A DNA stretch of 64,000 bases. Source: Luteitalea pratensis (GTDB lineage Bacteria > Acidobacteriota > Vicinamibacteria > Vicinamibacterales > Vicinamibacteraceae). Of the stretch, positions 2,648 through 60,978 are shown piece by piece. The notes under the pieces are model-generated. The model did not search any database and was not told the origin of the DNA. It saw nothing but the letters and a program-made list of their open reading frames with translations. The DNA is taken from NCBI RefSeq assembly GCF_001618865.1, contig NZ_CP015136.1, positions 4,561,001 through 4,625,000 of the forward strand, read 5' to 3'. Position 1 is the first letter of the stretch. Every line of letters starts with the position of its first letter. The position numbers and the translations under genes are program-made.

Positions 2648-4032
2648 TGAACGATCCTCGCACGCTGGTCTCGCACCCCGAGCTTCGGTCGCACCAGTCG
2701 TTCCCGCATTTCCAGACCGTCGGCGAGACGCCCAAGAGCGCGCTCGAACGCGGCCTGTCGTTCTTTGCCGATGTCCGATCCGGCGAGGGCGCGTCGGTCC
2801 TGCTCCTGACCTGCACGGTCTTCCTGTTGCTGGCCAGCTACTACCTGCTCAAGACCGCACGCGAAGCGCTCATCCTGAGCATCGACAACGGCGCCGAACT
2901 GAAGGCGTATTCGTCAGCGGGTCAGGCCGTCCTGCTGCTTGGCGTGGTGCCAGCGTACGGCTGGCTCGCCTCGCGCATGCCGCGCGTGCCACTGATCGGC
3001 GTGACGACGGCGTTGCTCGGCGTCAACCTGCTGGCGTTTGCCGCGCTCTACGCCGCCGGCACGGTCATCGCCGTGCCGTTCTACATCTGGCTCGGCATCT
3101 ACAACGTCTTCACGATTTCGCAGTTCTGGGCCTTCACCAACGACCTCTATACGGAAGGCCAGGGGCGGCGTCTGTTCGCCTTCATCGGCGTCGGCAGTTC
3201 GCTCGGGGCGTGGTTCGGGGCCGAGGCGGCAGGCGCGCTGGTCAAGCGCACCGCCGCCGAGCCGGGGACGCTGATGATCCTCGCGGCAATCCTACTGACC
3301 ACCTGCTTCGGGATGATCGTAGTGGTCAACAGGCGCGAGGTCCGGCGCGCGGACCCGGTTGGACAGCATCAGAGCGAAGCCCCGATCGGCGGGCGCAACG
3401 GCTTTGCCCTCGTGTTCAGTGACCGCTACCTGTTGCTGATTGCCGTCCTGATGGTGTTACTCAACGTGGTCAACAGCGCCGGCGAGTTCGTGCTCGGCAA
3501 GCTGGTGAGCGCGCAGGCGATGGAACTCTTCGCTGGCGACGCGCTCGCAAACGAGCGCCGCCGTTTCATCGCCGCCTTCTACGGCTCGTTCTTCGGGCGA
3601 GTCAACCTGCTCGGGTTCCTGCTGCAGTTGTTCGTGACCTCGCGCCTGCTGCGCGCCCTCGGCGTGCGCGGCGCGCTGTTCGTGCTGCCGGTCATCGCGC
3701 TCGTGAACTACTCGGTGATCATGGTGGCGCCGGTCCTCGCCGTCGTCTCGGTGCTCAAGATCTTCGAGAACGCCACCGACTACTCGGTCCAGAACACGGT
3801 CAAGCAGGCGTTGTTCCTGCCCACCTCGCGCGAGGCCAAGTACAAGGCCAAGGCGGCCATCGACACGTTCTTCATGCGGCTCGGCGACGTCACGCAGGCG
3901 GGTATCGTGCGGTTGGGTACCAGCCTCGGCGCCAGTGTCGCCGCCTTTGCCGCCTTCACCGTCGGGCTGACGGTGCTGTGGTTGGCGGTCGCGGGCCAGA
4001 TTGCCCGGGAGCATCGCCGGAAGACGGTGTGA
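2647..4032 (+). CDS. Npt1/Npt2-family nucleotide-transporter-like membrane protein
   Basis: 461 residues. ATG at 2647 overlaps the preceding stop (TGATG), so it is preferred to longer in-frame versions that run through the upstream gene. About twelve hydrophobic segments are visible. The first carries LLASYYLLKTAREALIL, typical of bacterial relatives of the ATP/ADP translocase (TLC) family. Characterised members exchange nucleotides, but free-living bacteria carry many of unknown substrate, so the substrate here is open. The last 77 bp overlap the 3' end of a second carrier of the same general type on the opposite strand. Confidence 0.8.
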   Translation: MNDPRTLVSHPELRSHQSFPHFQTVGETPKSALERGLSFFADVRSGEGASVLLLTCTVFLLLASYYLLKTAREALILSIDNGAELKAYSSAGQAVLLLGVVPAYGWLASRMPRVPLIGVTTALLGVNLLAFAALYAAGTVIAVPFYIWLGIYNVFTISQFWAFTNDLYTEGQGRRLFAFIGVGSSLGAWFGAEAAGALVKRTAAEPGTLMILAAILLTTCFGMIVVVNRREVRRADPVGQHQSEAPIGGRNGFALVFSDRYLLLIAVLMVLLNVVNSAGEFVLGKLVSAQAMELFAGDALANERRRFIAAFYGSFFGRVNLLGFLLQLFVTSRLLRALGVRGALFVLPVIALVNYSVIMVAPVLAVVSVLKIFENATDYSVQNTVKQALFLPTSREAKYKAKAAIDTFFMRLGDVTQAGIVRLGTSLGASVAAFAAFTVGLTVLWLAVAGQIAREHRRKTV

Positions 4033-14539: not shown

Positions 14540-14542
14540 GAT

Positions 14543-14580
14543 CGGGAGTCGGGAGTCGGAAGTCGGAAGTCGGAAGTCGG
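14543..14580. repeat. Heptamer tandem repeat (CGGGAGT/CGGAAGT)
   Basis: Five and a half 7-bp units: CGGGAGT twice, CGGAAGT three times, then CGG. The array lies directly upstream of the DinB-like gene start. The same family recurs at 26252-26289. Confidence 0.85.
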
Positions 14581-18136: not shown

Positions 18137-18661
18137 ATGCATCGACTCCTGATCGCGACCGGTCTCGCGCTCGCAGCGCTCCTGCTGCCCGTTACTCACG
18201 CATCTGCCCAGTCCGCGGCCATGGATGGCATCCGCGGCGAATTCACTGCCGTGAAGACCTCGGTGATGACTGCGGCCAACAAGGCCCCCGAGTCCATCTA
18301 CGGGTTCCAGGCGACGCCGGAGGTGTACACGTTCCGCAAGATGCTGCTTCACATTGCCGATGCCGGCTACAGCATCTGTTCCGGATTCAAGGGCACGCCG
18401 GGGCAGCGGCCCAAGGTCGATGCCGACGCCGTGCTTCCCAAGGCCGACGTCGTGGCGGCGCTGACCAAGGCCTTCGCCTTTTGCGACGAGGCCCTCGCGG
18501 CCGCCAACGATGCCACGCTCGGCGAAACCGTGACGGCGCCCTCAGGAACGAAGCGGCCCAAGAGCTATTACGCCAGCCACCTGCTCGCGCACACAAGCCT
18601 GCACTACGGCAACGTGATCACGTACATGCGGCTCAACAAGCTGTCGCCGGGCGAGCAGTAG
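18137..18661 (+). CDS. Secreted DinB-family protein
   Basis: 174 residues with a signal peptide ending near THASAQS. The mature part is a DinB-like helical bundle: FQATPEVYTFRKMLLHIADAG carries the first His, and ASHLLAHTSLHYGNVITYMR carries the two C-terminal His ligands. DinB-fold proteins bind a divalent metal, and many are thiol transferases. Export of a DinB protein is common in Acidobacteria, but its role is unknown. A GGAG ribosome site precedes the ATG. Confidence 0.85.
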   Translation: MHRLLIATGLALAALLLPVTHASAQSAAMDGIRGEFTAVKTSVMTAANKAPESIYGFQATPEVYTFRKMLLHIADAGYSICSGFKGTPGQRPKVDADAVLPKADVVAALTKAFAFCDEALAAANDATLGETVTAPSGTKRPKSYYASHLLAHTSLHYGNVITYMRLNKLSPGEQ

Positions 18662-18671
18662 GGGCGCCGAC

Positions 18672-18698
18672 GGCCGGGCTCGGAGAGCCGGCCCTACC
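18672..18698. repeat. REP-like hairpin with CTAC foot
   Basis: GGCCGG(G)CT-CGGAG-AGCCGGCC is followed by CTACC. The CGGAG loop and the CCTACC foot match the hairpins in the 177-bp units at 44330-45373. It lies between convergent genes and may also act in termination. A weaker similar sequence follows at about 18735-18765. Confidence 0.6.
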
Positions 18699-23505: not shown

Positions 23506-23573
23506 GGTCTCAAGCCTCAAGCGTCAAGCCTCAAGTCTCAGGCCTCAGGTCTCAGGTCTCAGGTCTCAGGTCT
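23506..23573. repeat. Heptamer tandem repeat (GGTCTCA family)
   Basis: Nearly ten 7-bp units. They start as GGTCTCA, AGCCTCA, AGCGTCA, AGCCTCA, AGTCTCA and GGCCTCA and end in GGTCTCA copies. The array fills the gap between the hybrid kinase stop and the PSD1 gene start. The same family occurs at 60827-60903. Confidence 0.9.
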
Positions 23574-38217: not shown

Positions 38218-38360
38218 AGGGTATCGGGAACCTCGACCGGTAATGGCGAGGCGTCTCAGGGCAGCCGGGCTCGGCCACCTTCGCACTCTCGCGCTTCGGC
38301 GCCAGGGAGATCCGGTCCCACCGGCGCGAGGCGTGCGCGTCAGCCGCTCGGCATGCGCGT

Positions 38361-38387
38361 CAGGCATCAGGCATCAGGCACAGGCAT
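38361..38387. repeat. Short heptamer repeat (CAGGCAT)
   Basis: CAGGCAT twice, then CAGGCA and CAGGCAT, directly after the der stop. Confidence 0.7.
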
Positions 38388-38389
38388 CC

Positions 38390-41286: not shown

Positions 41287-43758
41287 TCAGAGCATCGACA
41301 GCGGATCCACGTCGACGGTGACGCGCTTCTGCAGCGACGGCATGCCGGTGATCGCCTGCCGCGTCACCTGCCGCATCGCGGCCCGGTCACGTCCCTTCAG
41401 GAACAACTGCACGCGTGACTCACCTCGCAGCCGGCCCAGCGGCGCCGGGGCGGGACCGAGCACGCCGAAGCGCTCGGCGCCAAGCGCGCGCAGCTTCTCC
41501 GCAAGCAGGCCCGCGTCCTTCAAGGCGGTTGCCAGTGACTCGTGCCGCACGACGATGTTGATCATCGACAGCCACGGCGGGTACCGCATGCGCTCGCGGA
41601 ACTCCAGTTCGTGCCCCACGAAATCGTCGTACGCCTGCCGCGCCGCCATCACGATCGCATAGTGCTTCGGATGCAGCGTCTGCACGAGGGCTTCGCCGCG
41701 CGCGTCGCCACGGCCGGCGCGCCCGGCCACCTGCGTGAGGAGCTGGAACGTGCGTTCCGCCGCGCGGAAGTCCGCCACGCCGAGGCCGATGTCGGCCGAG
41801 ACCACGCCGACCAGTGTCACCTGCGGGAAATCGTGGCCCTTCGCGATCATCTGCGTACCGACGAGGACATCGACCTCGCGGGCAGCAAACCTTGCCAGCA
41901 CCGTACCGATGGCGCCGCGACGCTGCATCGTGTCGCGATCGACACGCGCGATCCGCGCCTGCGGGCACGCGGCCAGCACCTCCTGCTCCACCCGTTCGGT
42001 GCCGACGCCCGTGTACTCGAGGAACTCGCCCTGGCACGACGGACACGTCGACGGCAGTGGCGCCGCATGGCCGCAGTAGTGACATCGGACCTGCGCCGCT
42101 CGTCGATGCACGGTCAGGGTGACCGCGCAGTTGGGGCACTCGGTGGTTTTGCCACACCCGCGACACAGCAGCGACGGCGCGTATCCACGACGGTTCAGCA
42201 GCACCATCGCCTGCTCGCGGCGCGAGAAGCACGCCTGCAACGCCTCTCGCAGGGGCTGGCTCAGCACGACCTCGGGCCCTTCGCTCGCCAGCACATCGCG
42301 CATGTCGATGATGCGGACGTCGGCCAGCGGTCGATCGTTGACGCGTTGTCGCATCCTCACGAGCCGATAGCGACCCTCGGACGCATGGCGCCACGTCTCG
42401 AGTGAGGGCGTCGCCGACCCGAGCACGGCCAGCGCACCCGCATCGCGGGCCCGCACCAGCGCCGCGTCGCGGCCGTGGTAGCGCGGACTCTCGTCCTGCT
42501 TGTAGGCGGTGTCGTGCTCTTCGTCCACGATCACCAGCCCGAGCCTGGGCAGGGGCGCGAACACCGCCGATCGCGTGCCGATGACGATGTCCACTTCGCC
42601 GCGGCGGATCCGGTGCCACTGGTCGTAGCGCTCGCCGTCGGACAGGCCGCTGTGCTGGATGGCCAGGCGCTCGCCGAACGCACGTCGGAACAACGAGGCC
42701 ACAGCGGAGGTCAGTGCGATCTCCGGTACCAGCAGCAGGACGCCGCGTTCGGCCTCGAGCGCGGCGCGCGCCAGGCGCAGGTAGACCTGCGTCTTGCCGC
42801 TCCCGGTGACGCCATGGAGCAGCGCCGGTTGAAAGCCCTGACCGATCAGCGGCTGCAGTGCCGCCAGCGCATCGGTCTGTTCCGGGGTCATCGGCAGGAA
42901 CAGCGGCGCCGCCAGCGCTTCCGACGTGCCTGCCGATCCGCTCGCGAAGGGATCGCGCGCGACCGCGCGCCACTCGACGATCGCCAGTCCGAGCGCCACC
43001 AACCGGCGCACGACCTCGCTGCCAATCCCCTGCTCGCGGAGCACGCCCGCGTCGATGCCCTCCGGCGTGCCGACCAGCACGCCCACCGCGGCCGCCTGCT
43101 TGGCTCCGAGTCGCGTCGTCGCTGGCTCGAATGCCGCCGGCGTCGGCCGGATCCACCGCTGCTTGCGCGACGCGTCGGCCTGCCCGGTGACCACCGGCTG
43201 CAGCCGCACTGCACCGATCTTGAGCAACCGGCGCACCGCCCGCGAGATGATCTCGGGCGTCGCCTCGAGGTCGCGGACACGCGCGGCGACGACGCGGGCG
43301 ACCTGCCGGCGCAGCACCGGGCCCTTGGCGCGCAGCAGCGCGAGGATGGCCTCGTCGACAGGCTGATCCAGCGGGAGTTCACGCGGGACCTGTTGCGCGG
43401 CATCCGCGGCGTCCTCGGCCAGGGCCAGCGTCATGTCGCTGCGCAACCAGCCCTTGGGCGGCATCGCCGCCGACATCACCTCGCCAGGTCCGGCGAGGTA
43501 GTAGTCGCCTACCCACAACGCGAGGTCCACCACCTCCTCGGGCAGGAACGTCACGTCGTCGAGCACTTCGAGGATGTCGCGCAGCCGCGCCGGCGTGTCG
43601 TCGAGCGGCGCGTTGTCGTGCGTGACCAGGCCCGTGAGCTTGCGGGGGCCGACCTGCACCACGACGCGCGTGCCGCGCGGCGCCTGCAGGCCGTCGGGGA
43701 GCCGATAGGTCAGCAGGCCGAGCCCTGGCACGGGCACGGCCACGCGGACCAGACGCAT
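41287..43758 (-). CDS. priA: Primosomal protein N' (PriA helicase)
   Basis: 823 residues. The N-terminal DNA-binding part precedes the SF2 helicase core: Walker A GVTGSGKTQVY, DEEH box VIVDEEHDTAYKQ, and LLNRRGYAPSLLCRGCGKT. Eight Cys form the zinc module: CRGCGKTTECPNC and CHYCGHAAPLPSTCPSC. GTQMIAKGHDFPQV and GRAGRG are the later helicase motifs. PriA restarts stalled replication forks. It overlaps the udg stop by one base and is last in the long minus-strand run. Confidence 0.97.
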   Translation of the reverse strand: MRLVRVAVPVPGLGLLTYRLPDGLQAPRGTRVVVQVGPRKLTGLVTHDNAPLDDTPARLRDILEVLDDVTFLPEEVVDLALWVGDYYLAGPGEVMSAAMPPKGWLRSDMTLALAEDAADAAQQVPRELPLDQPVDEAILALLRAKGPVLRRQVARVVAARVRDLEATPEIISRAVRRLLKIGAVRLQPVVTGQADASRKQRWIRPTPAAFEPATTRLGAKQAAAVGVLVGTPEGIDAGVLREQGIGSEVVRRLVALGLAIVEWRAVARDPFASGSAGTSEALAAPLFLPMTPEQTDALAALQPLIGQGFQPALLHGVTGSGKTQVYLRLARAALEAERGVLLLVPEIALTSAVASLFRRAFGERLAIQHSGLSDGERYDQWHRIRRGEVDIVIGTRSAVFAPLPRLGLVIVDEEHDTAYKQDESPRYHGRDAALVRARDAGALAVLGSATPSLETWRHASEGRYRLVRMRQRVNDRPLADVRIIDMRDVLASEGPEVVLSQPLREALQACFSRREQAMVLLNRRGYAPSLLCRGCGKTTECPNCAVTLTVHRRAAQVRCHYCGHAAPLPSTCPSCQGEFLEYTGVGTERVEQEVLAACPQARIARVDRDTMQRRGAIGTVLARFAAREVDVLVGTQMIAKGHDFPQVTLVGVVSADIGLGVADFRAAERTFQLLTQVAGRAGRGDARGEALVQTLHPKHYAIVMAARQAYDDFVGHELEFRERMRYPPWLSMINIVVRHESLATALKDAGLLAEKLRALGAERFGVLGPAPAPLGRLRGESRVQLFLKGRDRAAMRQVTRQAITGMPSLQKRVTVDVDPLSML

Positions 43759-45503
43759 CAGCGCGCCTCGCCTCGCAGGAGAGACCGGACCAGCTTCATG
43801 TCTTCCCAGGTCTCCCGCTTCTTGTCGGGACTGCGCAGGAGATACGCCGGGTGGAATGTCGGCACGAGCTGCGCGCCGCGGAACGGATGGATCTGGCCCC
43901 GTAGCCTGGTGATCGGCGTGTCGGTCCGCAGGAGCGACTGAGCCGCGAACTTCCCCAGCGCGACGATCACCTTCGGCTGGACGAGGTCAATCTGCTGGAA
44001 CAGGAACGGCTCGCAGGTGTTCACTTCGTCGGGTTCGGGATTCCGGTTACCCGGCGGCCGGCACTTGATGACGTTCGCGATGTACACGTCGTCGCGATGC
44101 AGCCCGATGGCCTCGATGATCTTCGTCAGCAGTTGTCCGGCGCGGCCAACGAATGGCACGCCCTGCTCGTCCTCGTCCGCACCCGGTGCCTCGCCGACGA
44201 ACATCAGGTCCGCCGTCGGATTGCCGACGCCGAAGACGACCTGCTTTCGACCGAGCCTGCAAAGCTTGCAGCGCATGCACTGTGGCCCGATGTGCGTCTG
44301 GAGGGCATCGAGCGCGGCCAGTGATGACTCCGTTGGTAGGGACCGCTCTGTTGGTAGGGACCGCTCTCCGAGCGGTCCATCTCCCACAGACGGATCGACA
44401 GGATGACCCTCGCGGGCACGGACGCCATCGCCCACGCGGCGATGGACGCCTCGGAGAGGCGTCCCTACCTGATCGACTTCGGCGTGCGGTCCATCTCCCA
44501 CAGAGTCCGTTGGTAGGGACCGCTCCGTTGGTAGGGACCGCTCTCCGAGCGGTCCATCTCCCACAGACGGATCGACAGGACGACCCTCGCGGGCACGGAC
44601 GCCATCGCCCACGCGGCGATGGACGCCTCGGAGAGGCGTCCCTACCTGATCGACTTCGGCGTGCGGTCCATCTCCCACAGAGTCCGTTGGTAGGGACCGC
44701 TCCGTTGGTAGGGACCGCTCTCCGAGCGGTCCATCTCCCACAGACGGATCGACAGGATGACCCTCGCGGGCACGGACGCCATCGCCCACGCGGCGATGGA
44801 CGCCTCGGAGAGGCGTCCCTACCTGATCGACTTCGGCGTGCGGTCCATCTCCCACAGAGTCCGTTGGTAGGGACCGCTCCGTTGGTAGGGACCGCTCTCC
44901 GAGCGGTCCATCTCCCACAGACGGATCGACAGGACGACCCACGCGGGCATGGACGCCATCGCCCACGCGGCGATGGACGCCTCGGAGAGGCGTCCCTACC
45001 TGATCGACTTCGGCGTGCGGTCCATCTCCCACAGAGTCCGTTGGTAGGGACCGCTCCGTTGGTAGGGACCGCTCTCCGAGCGGTCCATCTCCCACAGACG
45101 GATCGACAGGATGACCCTCGCGGGCACGGACGCCATCGCCCACGCGGCGATGGACGCCTCGGAGAGGCGTCCCTACCTGATCGACTTCGGCGTGCGGTCC
45201 ATCTCCCACAGAGTCCGTTGGTAGGGACCGCTCCGTTGGTAGGGACCGCTCTCCGAGCGGTCCATCTCCCACAGACGGATCGACAGGATGACCCTCGCGG
45301 GCACGGACGCCATCGCCCACGCGGTGATGGACGCCTCGGAGAGGCGTCCCTACCTGATCGACTTCGGCGTGCGGCGTTCGGTCTTCCGCGTTCGACGAGT
45401 TCGCGGTCCACGACTCGTCGCGACTGAACCCCGGCACACCGAGCTCGGAATAGAACTCCAGATGGGCACGCAGCTGCGCGCGCGGATCGGTGCGGTCAGT
45501 CAT
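43758..45503 (-). CDS. Family-4 uracil-DNA glycosylase with 348-residue repeat insertion
   Basis: 581 residues. Residues 1-43 ([20 protein letters not shown]) and the catalytic domain (about 392-581) are those of a normal family-4 enzyme: [11 protein letters not shown] for the Fe-S site, [20 protein letters not shown] for the catalytic loop, [13 protein letters not shown], and [16 protein letters not shown] near the end. Family-4 enzymes are usually about 200-230 residues long. The extra length is six in-frame copies of a 59-residue unit (residues about 44-391), built from intergenic-type hairpin DNA. The ATG overlaps the coaBC stop (ATGA). The enzyme removes uracil from DNA. Whether the insertion affects activity is unknown. 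Confidence 0.9.
44330..45373. repeat. Six 177-bp tandem repeats of REP-like hairpins inside udg
   Basis: Units begin at 44330, 44507, 44684, 44861, 45038 and 45215; the last is slightly short. The period is 177 bp, exactly 59 codons. Each unit holds a truncated and a full GGTAGGGACCGCT-type palindrome with a CTCCG loop, an inverted GGACGCCT-CGGAG-AGGCGTCC palindrome with a CCTACC foot, and a third hairpin CCATCGCC-CACGC-GGCGATGG. Copies differ by only a few bases, so the array is young or kept uniform. Confidence 0.97.
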
Positions 45504-46801
45504 TGGGCGTTGGCTGGGTTCGGAGAGTTCACTCGATCGGCCGGGCTGCCGCCTGCGCCTGCAGGCTTCGGCGTGTCAGGCGAAGAGCCGCCCATACCGT
45601 CGGCTGTGGCTGCGAGTCGCTCGGCGATGTACGCAGCGATGCGTGCCGCCAATGCCGCCTTGGCTTCGAGGGGAAACGACTGCACGCCCTCGGCGGTCAC
45701 GAAGCTCGCGATGTTGGTCTCGACCTCGAAGCCGGCACCGGGTTGGCCGACGTCGTTGGCGACGATCAGGTCCACCCGCTTGGCCTCACGCTTCCGCGAG
45801 GCATAGCCCAGCACGTCGGTCGTCTCGGCGGCGAACCCGACGAGCACGGGAGACGGACGGTCCGCACGCCACCGGCCGAGATCGGCCAGGATGTCCACGG
45901 TGCGTTCGAGTGTCACGGTGAGGCCGCCGTCCTGCTTCTTGACCTTGTCGCTGGCCGCGCCGCCGGCCGGGGTATAGTCGGCGACGGCGGCAGACATCAC
46001 GATGGCGTCGACGGCCTCACGTTCGGCCGTGACAGCGGCGTGCATTTCGCGGGCGGACCGCACCCGGACGGTCTTCACACCGGCAGGCGGAGCAATCGAG
46101 GTCGGTCCGAGGACGAGCGTGACCTCCGCCCCCTGTCGGGCCGCTTCGACGGCCACGGCCACACCCATACGACCACTCGAGCGGTTTCCCAAGTACCTGA
46201 CGGGATCGAGGTCCTCGTACGTGGGGCCCGCCGTCACGAGGACGCGGCGTCCGCGCAGGGCCCCCGGTGGCTCGATGATGCGCAGGGCCTCGGCCGCGAT
46301 CACATCCGGCTCGGCGAGCCGGCCCTTCCCTACCCAGCCGCACGCCAGGTAGCCCTCACCGGGCTCGACAAACCGCACCCCGCGCGTCCGCAGCAGCGCC
46401 ATGTTGGCCTGCGTCGCGGGGTGGTCGTACATGTGGGTGTTCATCGCCGGCGCGACGAGGACGGGCGCACGCGTCGCCAGCGCCAGCGAGGTCAGGAAGT
46501 CGCCGGCCAGCCCGTGTGCCATTTTGGCGATGGTGTTGGCCGTCGCAGGGGCGACCAGCAGCAGCGCGGCTTCGGAGGCGAGGGCGATGTGCTCGATGTC
46601 GGCGTTGGCGCCCGGCGTCCACTGGCTGGTGATCACCCGCCGCTGGGTGATCGCTTCGAACGTCAGGGGCGCGACAAAGCGCGTCGCGGCACGGGTCATC
46701 ACGACGGCGACCTGGTGTCCGGCCTTCTGCAGCTGGCGCACCACTTCGACCGCCTTGTAGGCGCTGATGCCGCCGCTGACGCCGACCGCCACGAGGGCCA
46801 T
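45500..46801 (-). CDS. coaBC: Bifunctional CoaBC (phosphopantothenoylcysteine decarboxylase/synthetase)
   Basis: 433 residues. The CoaC half binds FMN ([18 protein letters not shown]) and has the PAMNTHMY motif. The CoaB half begins near [20 protein letters not shown] with NRSSGRMG and ends in a segment [20 protein letters not shown] with VDLIVANDV. Both activities appear intact. It makes 4'-phosphopantetheine, the precursor of coenzyme A. It lies 21 bp after rpoZ. The tail is Gly/Pro-rich. Confidence 0.95.
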
Positions 46802-59883: not shown

Positions 59884-60819
<936 letters not shown>

Positions 60820-60826
60820 GCTTGGG

Positions 60827-60978
60827 GGTCTCAGGTCTCAGGTCTCAGGTCTCAGGTCTCAGGTCTCAGGTCGCAGGTCGCAGGTCTCAGGTCGCAGGTC
60901 TCAAGCGGGTACGTGCCTGAGCCATGAGACATGAGACGTGAGACCGGGGCTGCAGGCTGCAGGCCGTAGGCTGCAGCC
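60827..60978. repeat. Long heptamer mosaic (GGTCTCA, ATGAGAC, TGCAGGC families)
   Basis: Eleven GGTCTCA/GGTCGCA units (60827-60903) are followed by inverted-sense ATGAGAC units (60924-60944), then TGCAGGC/CGTAGGC units (60951-60978). Three families in a row fill the space between convergent genes. Confidence 0.92.

Follow-up and report, generated by a model that had tools for sequence, protein, structure and literature searches.

A conserved DNA repair gene of Luteitalea pratensis, udg, carries within its coding sequence a tandem array of more than a kilobase. The locus raises the question of what this repeat is, how it came to lie inside the gene, and whether it is translated. The locus was analysed within a 64,000-nucleotide stretch of the L. 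pratensis genome, referred to below as the window. The relevant features are the following:

43758..45503, minus strand: udg ORF, family-4 uracil-DNA glycosylase (UDG), 581 aa (ORF list and profile match)
45372..45503, minus strand: udg codons 1–44, conserved N-terminal segment and start of the linker (alignment and model)
44329..45374, minus strand: array of about six 177-bp (59-codon) units, 347 residues, predicted to be disordered
43767..44333, minus strand: udg catalytic region, residues 391–579, predicted to be folded (pLDDT mostly >90)
45500..46801, minus strand: coaBC-like gene (Flavoprotein and DFP domains), upstream neighbour of udg, with an ATGA overlap at the udg start
41287..43758, minus strand: priA-like gene, downstream neighbour of udg, with a one-base TGATG overlap at the udg stop

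Tandem Repeats Finder placed the array at 44329-45374, with a period of 177, 5.9 copies, 98% matches, 0% indels and a score of 2050. The minus-strand ORF runs uninterrupted and in frame through the whole array, and the peptide HAEVDQ returns each 59 codons in all five intervals. An earlier, sequence-only reading had proposed six near-identical 59-codon units set in frame between an N-terminal helix and an Fe-S catalytic domain whose motifs remain intact. The units and their spacing are borne out by these data, and alignment, profile match and structural model agree on the placement. In the model, the N-terminal segment contains predicted helices at residues 7-20 and 30-36 (pLDDT blocks 61-84), and residues 41-383 mostly have pLDDT <50, so that the array is predicted to be disordered. 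The TIGR00758 profile (UDG family 4) matches residues 409-576 with 210 bits, compared to a cut-off of 125. Residues C409, C412, C481, C497 and H551 are invariant across a 40-sequence alignment; the four cysteines are those to which we ascribe an Fe-S role. The sequence also matches solved structures 1ui0 and 4zbx. The array-bearing protein thus has the catalytic domain and Fe-S cysteines of known family-4 enzymes and, with its active-site residues intact, is predicted to excise uracil. Matches of the array to Collagen_mid and to RiPP HaaA fell below their cut-offs and were discarded as noise.

Each 177-bp unit consists of a REP, an inverted REP and a half-REP, the two inverted REPs making a BIME:

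44355..44378, plus strand: GTAG-type REP TAGGGACCGCTCTCCGAGCGGTCC, first of six; the others start at 44532, 44709, 44886, 45063 and 45240
44444..44467, minus strand: inverted REP TAGGGACGCCTCTCCGAGGCGTCC, first of six; the others start at 44621, 44798, 44975, 45152 and 45329
44506..44543, plus strand: half-REP and start of a full REP, with an 18-bp period; recurs at 44328, 44683, 44860, 45037 and 45214

The REPs have the hallmarks of the GTAG class, a 9-bp perfect stem closed by a 3-nt loop directly after GGTAG, and six plus-strand and six minus-strand copies alternate along the array as the regular inverted modules of a BIME. A strict palindrome pattern found 12 copies without mismatch in the array, a single one, with 2 mismatches, elsewhere in the window, and none in 100 shuffles of the sequence. 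When 40 genomes of the order were searched, 239 strict copies were found in L. pratensis, 110 in its congener G004, 8 in G001 and 1 in G002; the other 36 genomes, G003 included, contained none, and neither did any genome contain a reversed control pattern. The strict pattern omits diverged REPs, such as the one in an ASPIC gene (L117). A simple minisatellite was rejected, as the units hold GTAG REPs dispersed across the whole genome. The units had been described as REP-like from the letters of the window; beyond that description, the repeat belongs to a REP/BIME family that is linked to a REP-associated tyrosine transposase (RAYT) and is restricted to the genus, being present in four of its genomes only, among the 40 searched.

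Other repeats in the window were also recorded. A lone, slightly degenerate REP (18673-18696, 2 mismatches) lies where REPs are usually found, about a dozen bases past the stop codon of the ORF that ends at 18661. Tandem tracts of 7 bp at 60827-60903, 23506-23573, 38360-38388 and 14542-14580 (GGTCTCA, CTCAGGC, TCAGGCA and TCGGAAG, respectively) have no resemblance to REPs. The longest of them, with 11 copies, starts 8 bases past ORF 59884-60819, presumably a nucleotide-sugar epimerase gene.

A candidate transposase for the family is encoded in the same genome. A 154-aa ORF (C1:4000311-4000772) matches the RAYT model NF047646 with 94.7 bits (cut-off 80) and contains PDHVH and YLRQNPVRAGL, which we read as RAYT/HUH motifs. 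It is flanked by REPs on both sides (L126 10443-12114): on one side there is a 15-copy 56-bp REP array with an inverted REP, and on the other REPs in both orientations. RAYT matches at E 0.001 occur in 25 of 60 genomes, but identity of at least 50% was seen only in L. pratensis (two genes), G001 and G004. REP copies and close RAYTs are co-distributed, in L. pratensis and the two congeners with several copies, and a RAYT may have mobilised the udg REPs. A distinct variant of the GTAG hairpin flanks the RAYT gene of G001, as expected of RAYT-REP pairs. The second L. pratensis RAYT gene (C1:1497499-1497918; L162:2790-3460) is 51% identical to the first and lies between GTAGGG hairpin-like sequences. 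At C1:2122613-2122866 there is a third match to Y1 transposases, which is split into two pieces and contains a stop.

The udg gene was compared with those of close relatives, a check that the earlier reading had called for. Linker length was measurable in 66 of 110 loci tried, with some genomes represented twice. The linker has 34-91 residues in 65 of these loci, compared to 385 in L. pratensis, and 52-82 residues in four congeners. Without the 347 residues of the array, about 38 residues remain, which is below the range of the congeners and indicates that part of the original linker was lost or replaced; an exact empty site was not found among the four congeners. The G004 udg contains one REP and a half-REP in the same linker. 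Since this REP lies at the linker start and is of another stem subtype than the array REPs, the udg REPs of the two species may, but need not, have a common origin. Hairpins of at least 8 bp were detected in 7 of 106 UDG linkers and in none of 106 catalytic-domain stretches of equal length; the seven include L. pratensis and one sequence sampled twice (L017, L097), the stretch scanned missed the G004 REP, and no conclusion is drawn from this count.

To place the udg array among other REPs, a census of REP loci was made in L. pratensis and G004, covering 236 of 239 copies (131 clusters) and 99 of 110 copies (93 clusters), respectively. A two-sided coding score >9 was obtained for 22 L. pratensis and 18 G004 clusters. 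From these, 14 of the 131 and 13 of the 93 clusters were chosen by hand as lying in frame within genes recognisable by Pfam. The dropped candidates (8 of 22 and 5 of 18) had no Pfam match or a REP judged to be upstream of the gene (L128:5735-7318). In some kept loci (kinase, NuoL-like, YfhO-like, cyclophilin and DUF4953), only one of the two sides of the REP has a domain. According to the Pfam matches, the L. pratensis host genes code for UDG, DnaE2, LigD, an FtsX-like permease, VanZ, gamma-glutamyltransferase (GGT), an ASPIC/TPR protein, an AIRS-domain protein, a NuoL-like protein, a methyltransferase, a YfhO-like protein, a hydroxyacyl-CoA dehydrogenase/enoyl-CoA hydratase, a SpoU methylase and a protein kinase. 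Those of G004 code for UDG, DnaE2, LigD, DprA, an acetaldehyde dehydrogenase-like protein, a multicopper oxidase, a cyclophilin, a DUF7133/cytochrome c protein, the same methyltransferase as in L. pratensis, an NHL protein, a PD40/amidohydrolase protein, a DUF4953 protein and an MFS/spermidine-synthase protein. UDG, DnaE2, LigD and the methyltransferase are REP-bearing in both species.

These insertions are exceptions. A score of 12 was passed by only 16 of the 131 L. pratensis clusters, compared to 69% of 402 random positions, which indicates that REPs strongly avoid genes, with the qualification that the random spans were 60 bp and many REP clusters are longer. The remaining 115 clusters, as usual for a high-copy and mostly intergenic REP family, scored below 12; the udg cluster, at 11.2, is among them. 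The census by design detects in-frame copies only. An ASPIC/TPR gene of G004 (L309, around 3011-3035), met by chance outside it, has a REP flanked by strong coding signals whose frames differ from one side to the other; this may be an insertion that breaks the frame or an error of the fragmented G004 assembly. Frame-breaking insertions or assembly errors thus exist beside the in-frame copies, which counts against the explanation preferred below.

Six of seven L. pratensis genes were aligned with relatives, VanZ being left out, and for several of the in-frame copies the relatives have shorter sites. The FtsX insert is missing from G004, G001 and G002. G001, G003, G005 and G006 have a shorter ASPIC insert or none. 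The same holds for the GGT insert in two of three relatives (G001 and G004, as opposed to G003) and for the DnaE2 insert in G003. In the ASPIC/TPR protein and in LigD, linker length does not clearly exceed that of the relatives, and LigD linkers are variable in all five aligned genomes. The DnaE2 inserts apparently begin at the same residue in L. pratensis and G004, and G001 too reads VGRD there. In the methyltransferase, a REP pair occupies an identical linker site in L. pratensis and G004 (L338:2165-3799 and L282:1743-3818) with a diverged spacer, suggesting a candidate long-retained coding REP.

The reading frames of the inserts bear on whether they are translated. The 177-bp unit is stop-free in one of three plus-strand and two of three minus-strand frames, in line with the earlier observation that several frames on both strands lack stops. 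Over five stop-free frames, the kept intragenic REPs (27 gene loci, 34 gene-frame cases) use 16, 11, 4, 3 and 0. This bias is significant (chi-square p about 5e-5), also after shared genes were collapsed by hand (p about 2e-4). The commonest frame encodes a polar peptide of the GRDRSPSGP type (16 of 34) and the next GxLGExxLP (11 of 34); the udg array is read as the rarer VGTPLRGVH together with GPLGERSLP. Since transposition should be blind to reading frame, the bias points to filtering at the protein level and suggests that in-frame REPs are translated, although a target dinucleotide tied to codon phase, or stops around REPs, could contribute. The periods of tandem arrays are divisible by 3 in 5 of 5 intragenic arrays and in 17 of 38 others (Fisher p 0.027), a comparison in which the L142 and L288 arrays (periods 18 and 15), located within candidate genes, were tallied with the others. 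Two large REP arrays, L331:2970-4017 (TRF period 133, copies about 66-67 bp apart) and L126:10437-11275 (period 56), belong to clusters that do not score as intragenic and have periods that are not multiples of 3.

Within udg, the catalytic part has a dN/dS of 0.09-0.12. The N-terminal segment has values of 0.24 (G001), 0.46 (G002) and 0.25 (G004), undefined for G003, which mostly reflect the time prior to the expansion. All five interior base differences among the units are non-synonymous, and the array sequence therefore gives no sign of constraint. One variant is common to units 3 and 5.

Intragenic REPs have been described before. In the accessible text of a 2013 study (PMC3733652), GTAG and CGTC REPs are reported inside genes, many of which serve repair or replication (DnaE2 and a DNA ligase among them), and the authors speculate on mutator effects. 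The GTAG elements described there resemble the udg array in their palindromes, dimers, clusters inside genes and cognate RAYTs. The larger REP-encoded regions have 43-82 residues, whereas the udg array, with 347, is about four times longer than the largest. The main text of that paper, its supplementary gene list apart, does not contain the words 'uracil', 'glycosylase', 'DprA', 'LigD' or 'Luteitalea', and its sole mention of Acidobacteria places tyrosine transposases in the TIR-type group. Compared with that text, UDG and DprA are new hosts, and DnaE2 and a ligase are found again. Among the open-licence PMC matches listed, no title or abstract describes a REP array in UDG or REPs in Luteitalea, which is not proof of absence. 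The alternating REPs in regular tandem modules and the REP-flanked RAYT are likewise features of BIMEs and REPtrons as presented in the available parts of PMC2817692 and PMC8266576, and one of the two REP groups in the latter combines GTAG with a perfect palindrome, as the udg units do. In the part of the BIME literature consulted (PMC2817692), the great majority of REPs are extragenic; in contrast, all 12 array REPs lie inside the udg ORF, in a module whose length is a multiple of three.

Rickettsia palindromic elements, as covered in the accessible text of two reviews (PMC10969869, PMC2229807), are also short palindromic mobile DNA inserted in frame into conserved genes, a trait that the Luteitalea REPs share. 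According to these reviews, a guanylate kinase bearing such an element kept its activity with altered substrate affinity; a tandem array comparable to that of udg was not found in their accessible text. The elements differ from the udg REPs in sequence: RPE-4 and RPE-6 are CGTC repeats, for which the portion of PMC3733652 available reports no transposase association, whereas the base tag of the udg repeat is GTAG. Given these elements, the intragenic GTAG REPs of 2013 and the 14 of 131 clusters found here, the sequence-only reading was too strong in regarding such repeats as normally confined to noncoding DNA.

We consider it quite probable that a GTAG-REP/BIME was inserted in frame into the UDG linker, was then expanded in tandem, and is read through to give an active, long-tethered UDG. 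The REP family would have spread by, or alongside, a RAYT, and one REP or pair would have entered, in frame, the flexible and naturally variable linker that joins the N-terminal segment to the Fe-S domain. Tandem duplication may then have brought a 177-bp unit containing the BIME to six copies, each of which stays in frame since 177 is divisible by three. Amplification may have been driven by the RAYT, as proposed for BIMEs in the available text of PMC2817692, or may have occurred by unequal recombination, and the variant common to units 3 and 5 is compatible with both. Translation would start at the coaBC-coupled ATG and proceed through the array, and the product would be an active UDG with a disordered tether, probably with a near-neutral effect. 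Of the roughly 350-residue protein insert proposed earlier, the in-frame extent (347 residues) is thus upheld, and translation of the full length is the likely, conditional part.

This origin has to be weighed against readings in which the array is not part of the protein or not real. Short-read assemblies are prone to errors in near-identical tandem repeats, and the copy number or even the presence of the array could in principle be wrong. The L. pratensis genome, a single contig of 7,480,314 bp, was however assembled from PacBio reads of strain HEG_-6_39 (mean 13.7 kb), corrected with Illumina data and circularised (PMC4882960); as such reads far exceed the 1.05-kb array, and as the separate genome G004 also has a REP in the same linker, an artefact is extremely improbable. 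The array could also be effectively non-coding, the catalytic domain being translated from a start inside or after it and the REPs acting as mRNA or DNA elements of a coaBC-udg-priA operon. The tested array stretch indeed contains 18 in-frame GTG codons, the REP hairpins are strong, and REPs close to an N-terminus may be misannotated as coding, according to the accessible text of PMC3733652. Yet the gene has a recognisable start, given by its conserved N-terminal segment and by the ATGA overlap with coaBC. No ATG, GTG or TTG occurs from the end of the array up to the first Fe-S cysteine, and the next ATG comes after that cysteine. The frame bias over 27 gene loci also suggests that in-frame REPs are generally translated. 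We regard a non-coding array as very unlikely.

A further possibility is that REP insertion in repair genes is not fortuitous, in that the inserts adjust the activity of repair enzymes or polymerases and increase mutability, the udg array being a length-variable regulator of base excision repair. This hypothesis is older than the present data, having been raised as a speculation in 2013 (accessible text of PMC3733652). UDG, DnaE2 and LigD are REP-bearing in both species and DprA in G004, so that repair genes make up 3 of 14 kept loci in L. pratensis, 4 of 13 in G004 and 4 of 23 in the union; for 3 of 14 the binomial p is 0.001-0.008, on an assumed background of 1.5-3% DNA-metabolism genes. The two species are related, not independent, and some insertions look ancestral; proteins with long linkers may be easier targets; and in udg the active-site residues are untouched and the catalytic part has the low dN/dS given above. 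The recurrence is support, not proof, and we consider it unlikely that the inserts tune repair in this way, if less so than a non-coding array.

In-frame insertion followed by tandem expansion remains the reading we prefer, and the udg array is then a known phenomenon, the intragenic REP, in an extreme form: it is the longest REP-encoded protein segment among the genomes analysed here and the accessible literature compared. It is a case from Acidobacteriota of GTAG REPs that lie inside genes and whose cognate RAYT has been identified, and the reading-frame bias adds a hint that REP inserts are translated and filtered. A bolder reading, to which we give little credence, would make REPs a genus-level source of protein tethers that are sorted by selection for frame, with repair genes as recurrent, retained hosts and the udg copy number tuning base excision repair and hence mutation rate. 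With REPs recurring in UDG, DnaE2, LigD and DprA, the idea put forward in 2013 about repair genes can be tested in L. pratensis, a soil organism that is in culture and has congeners without the array.
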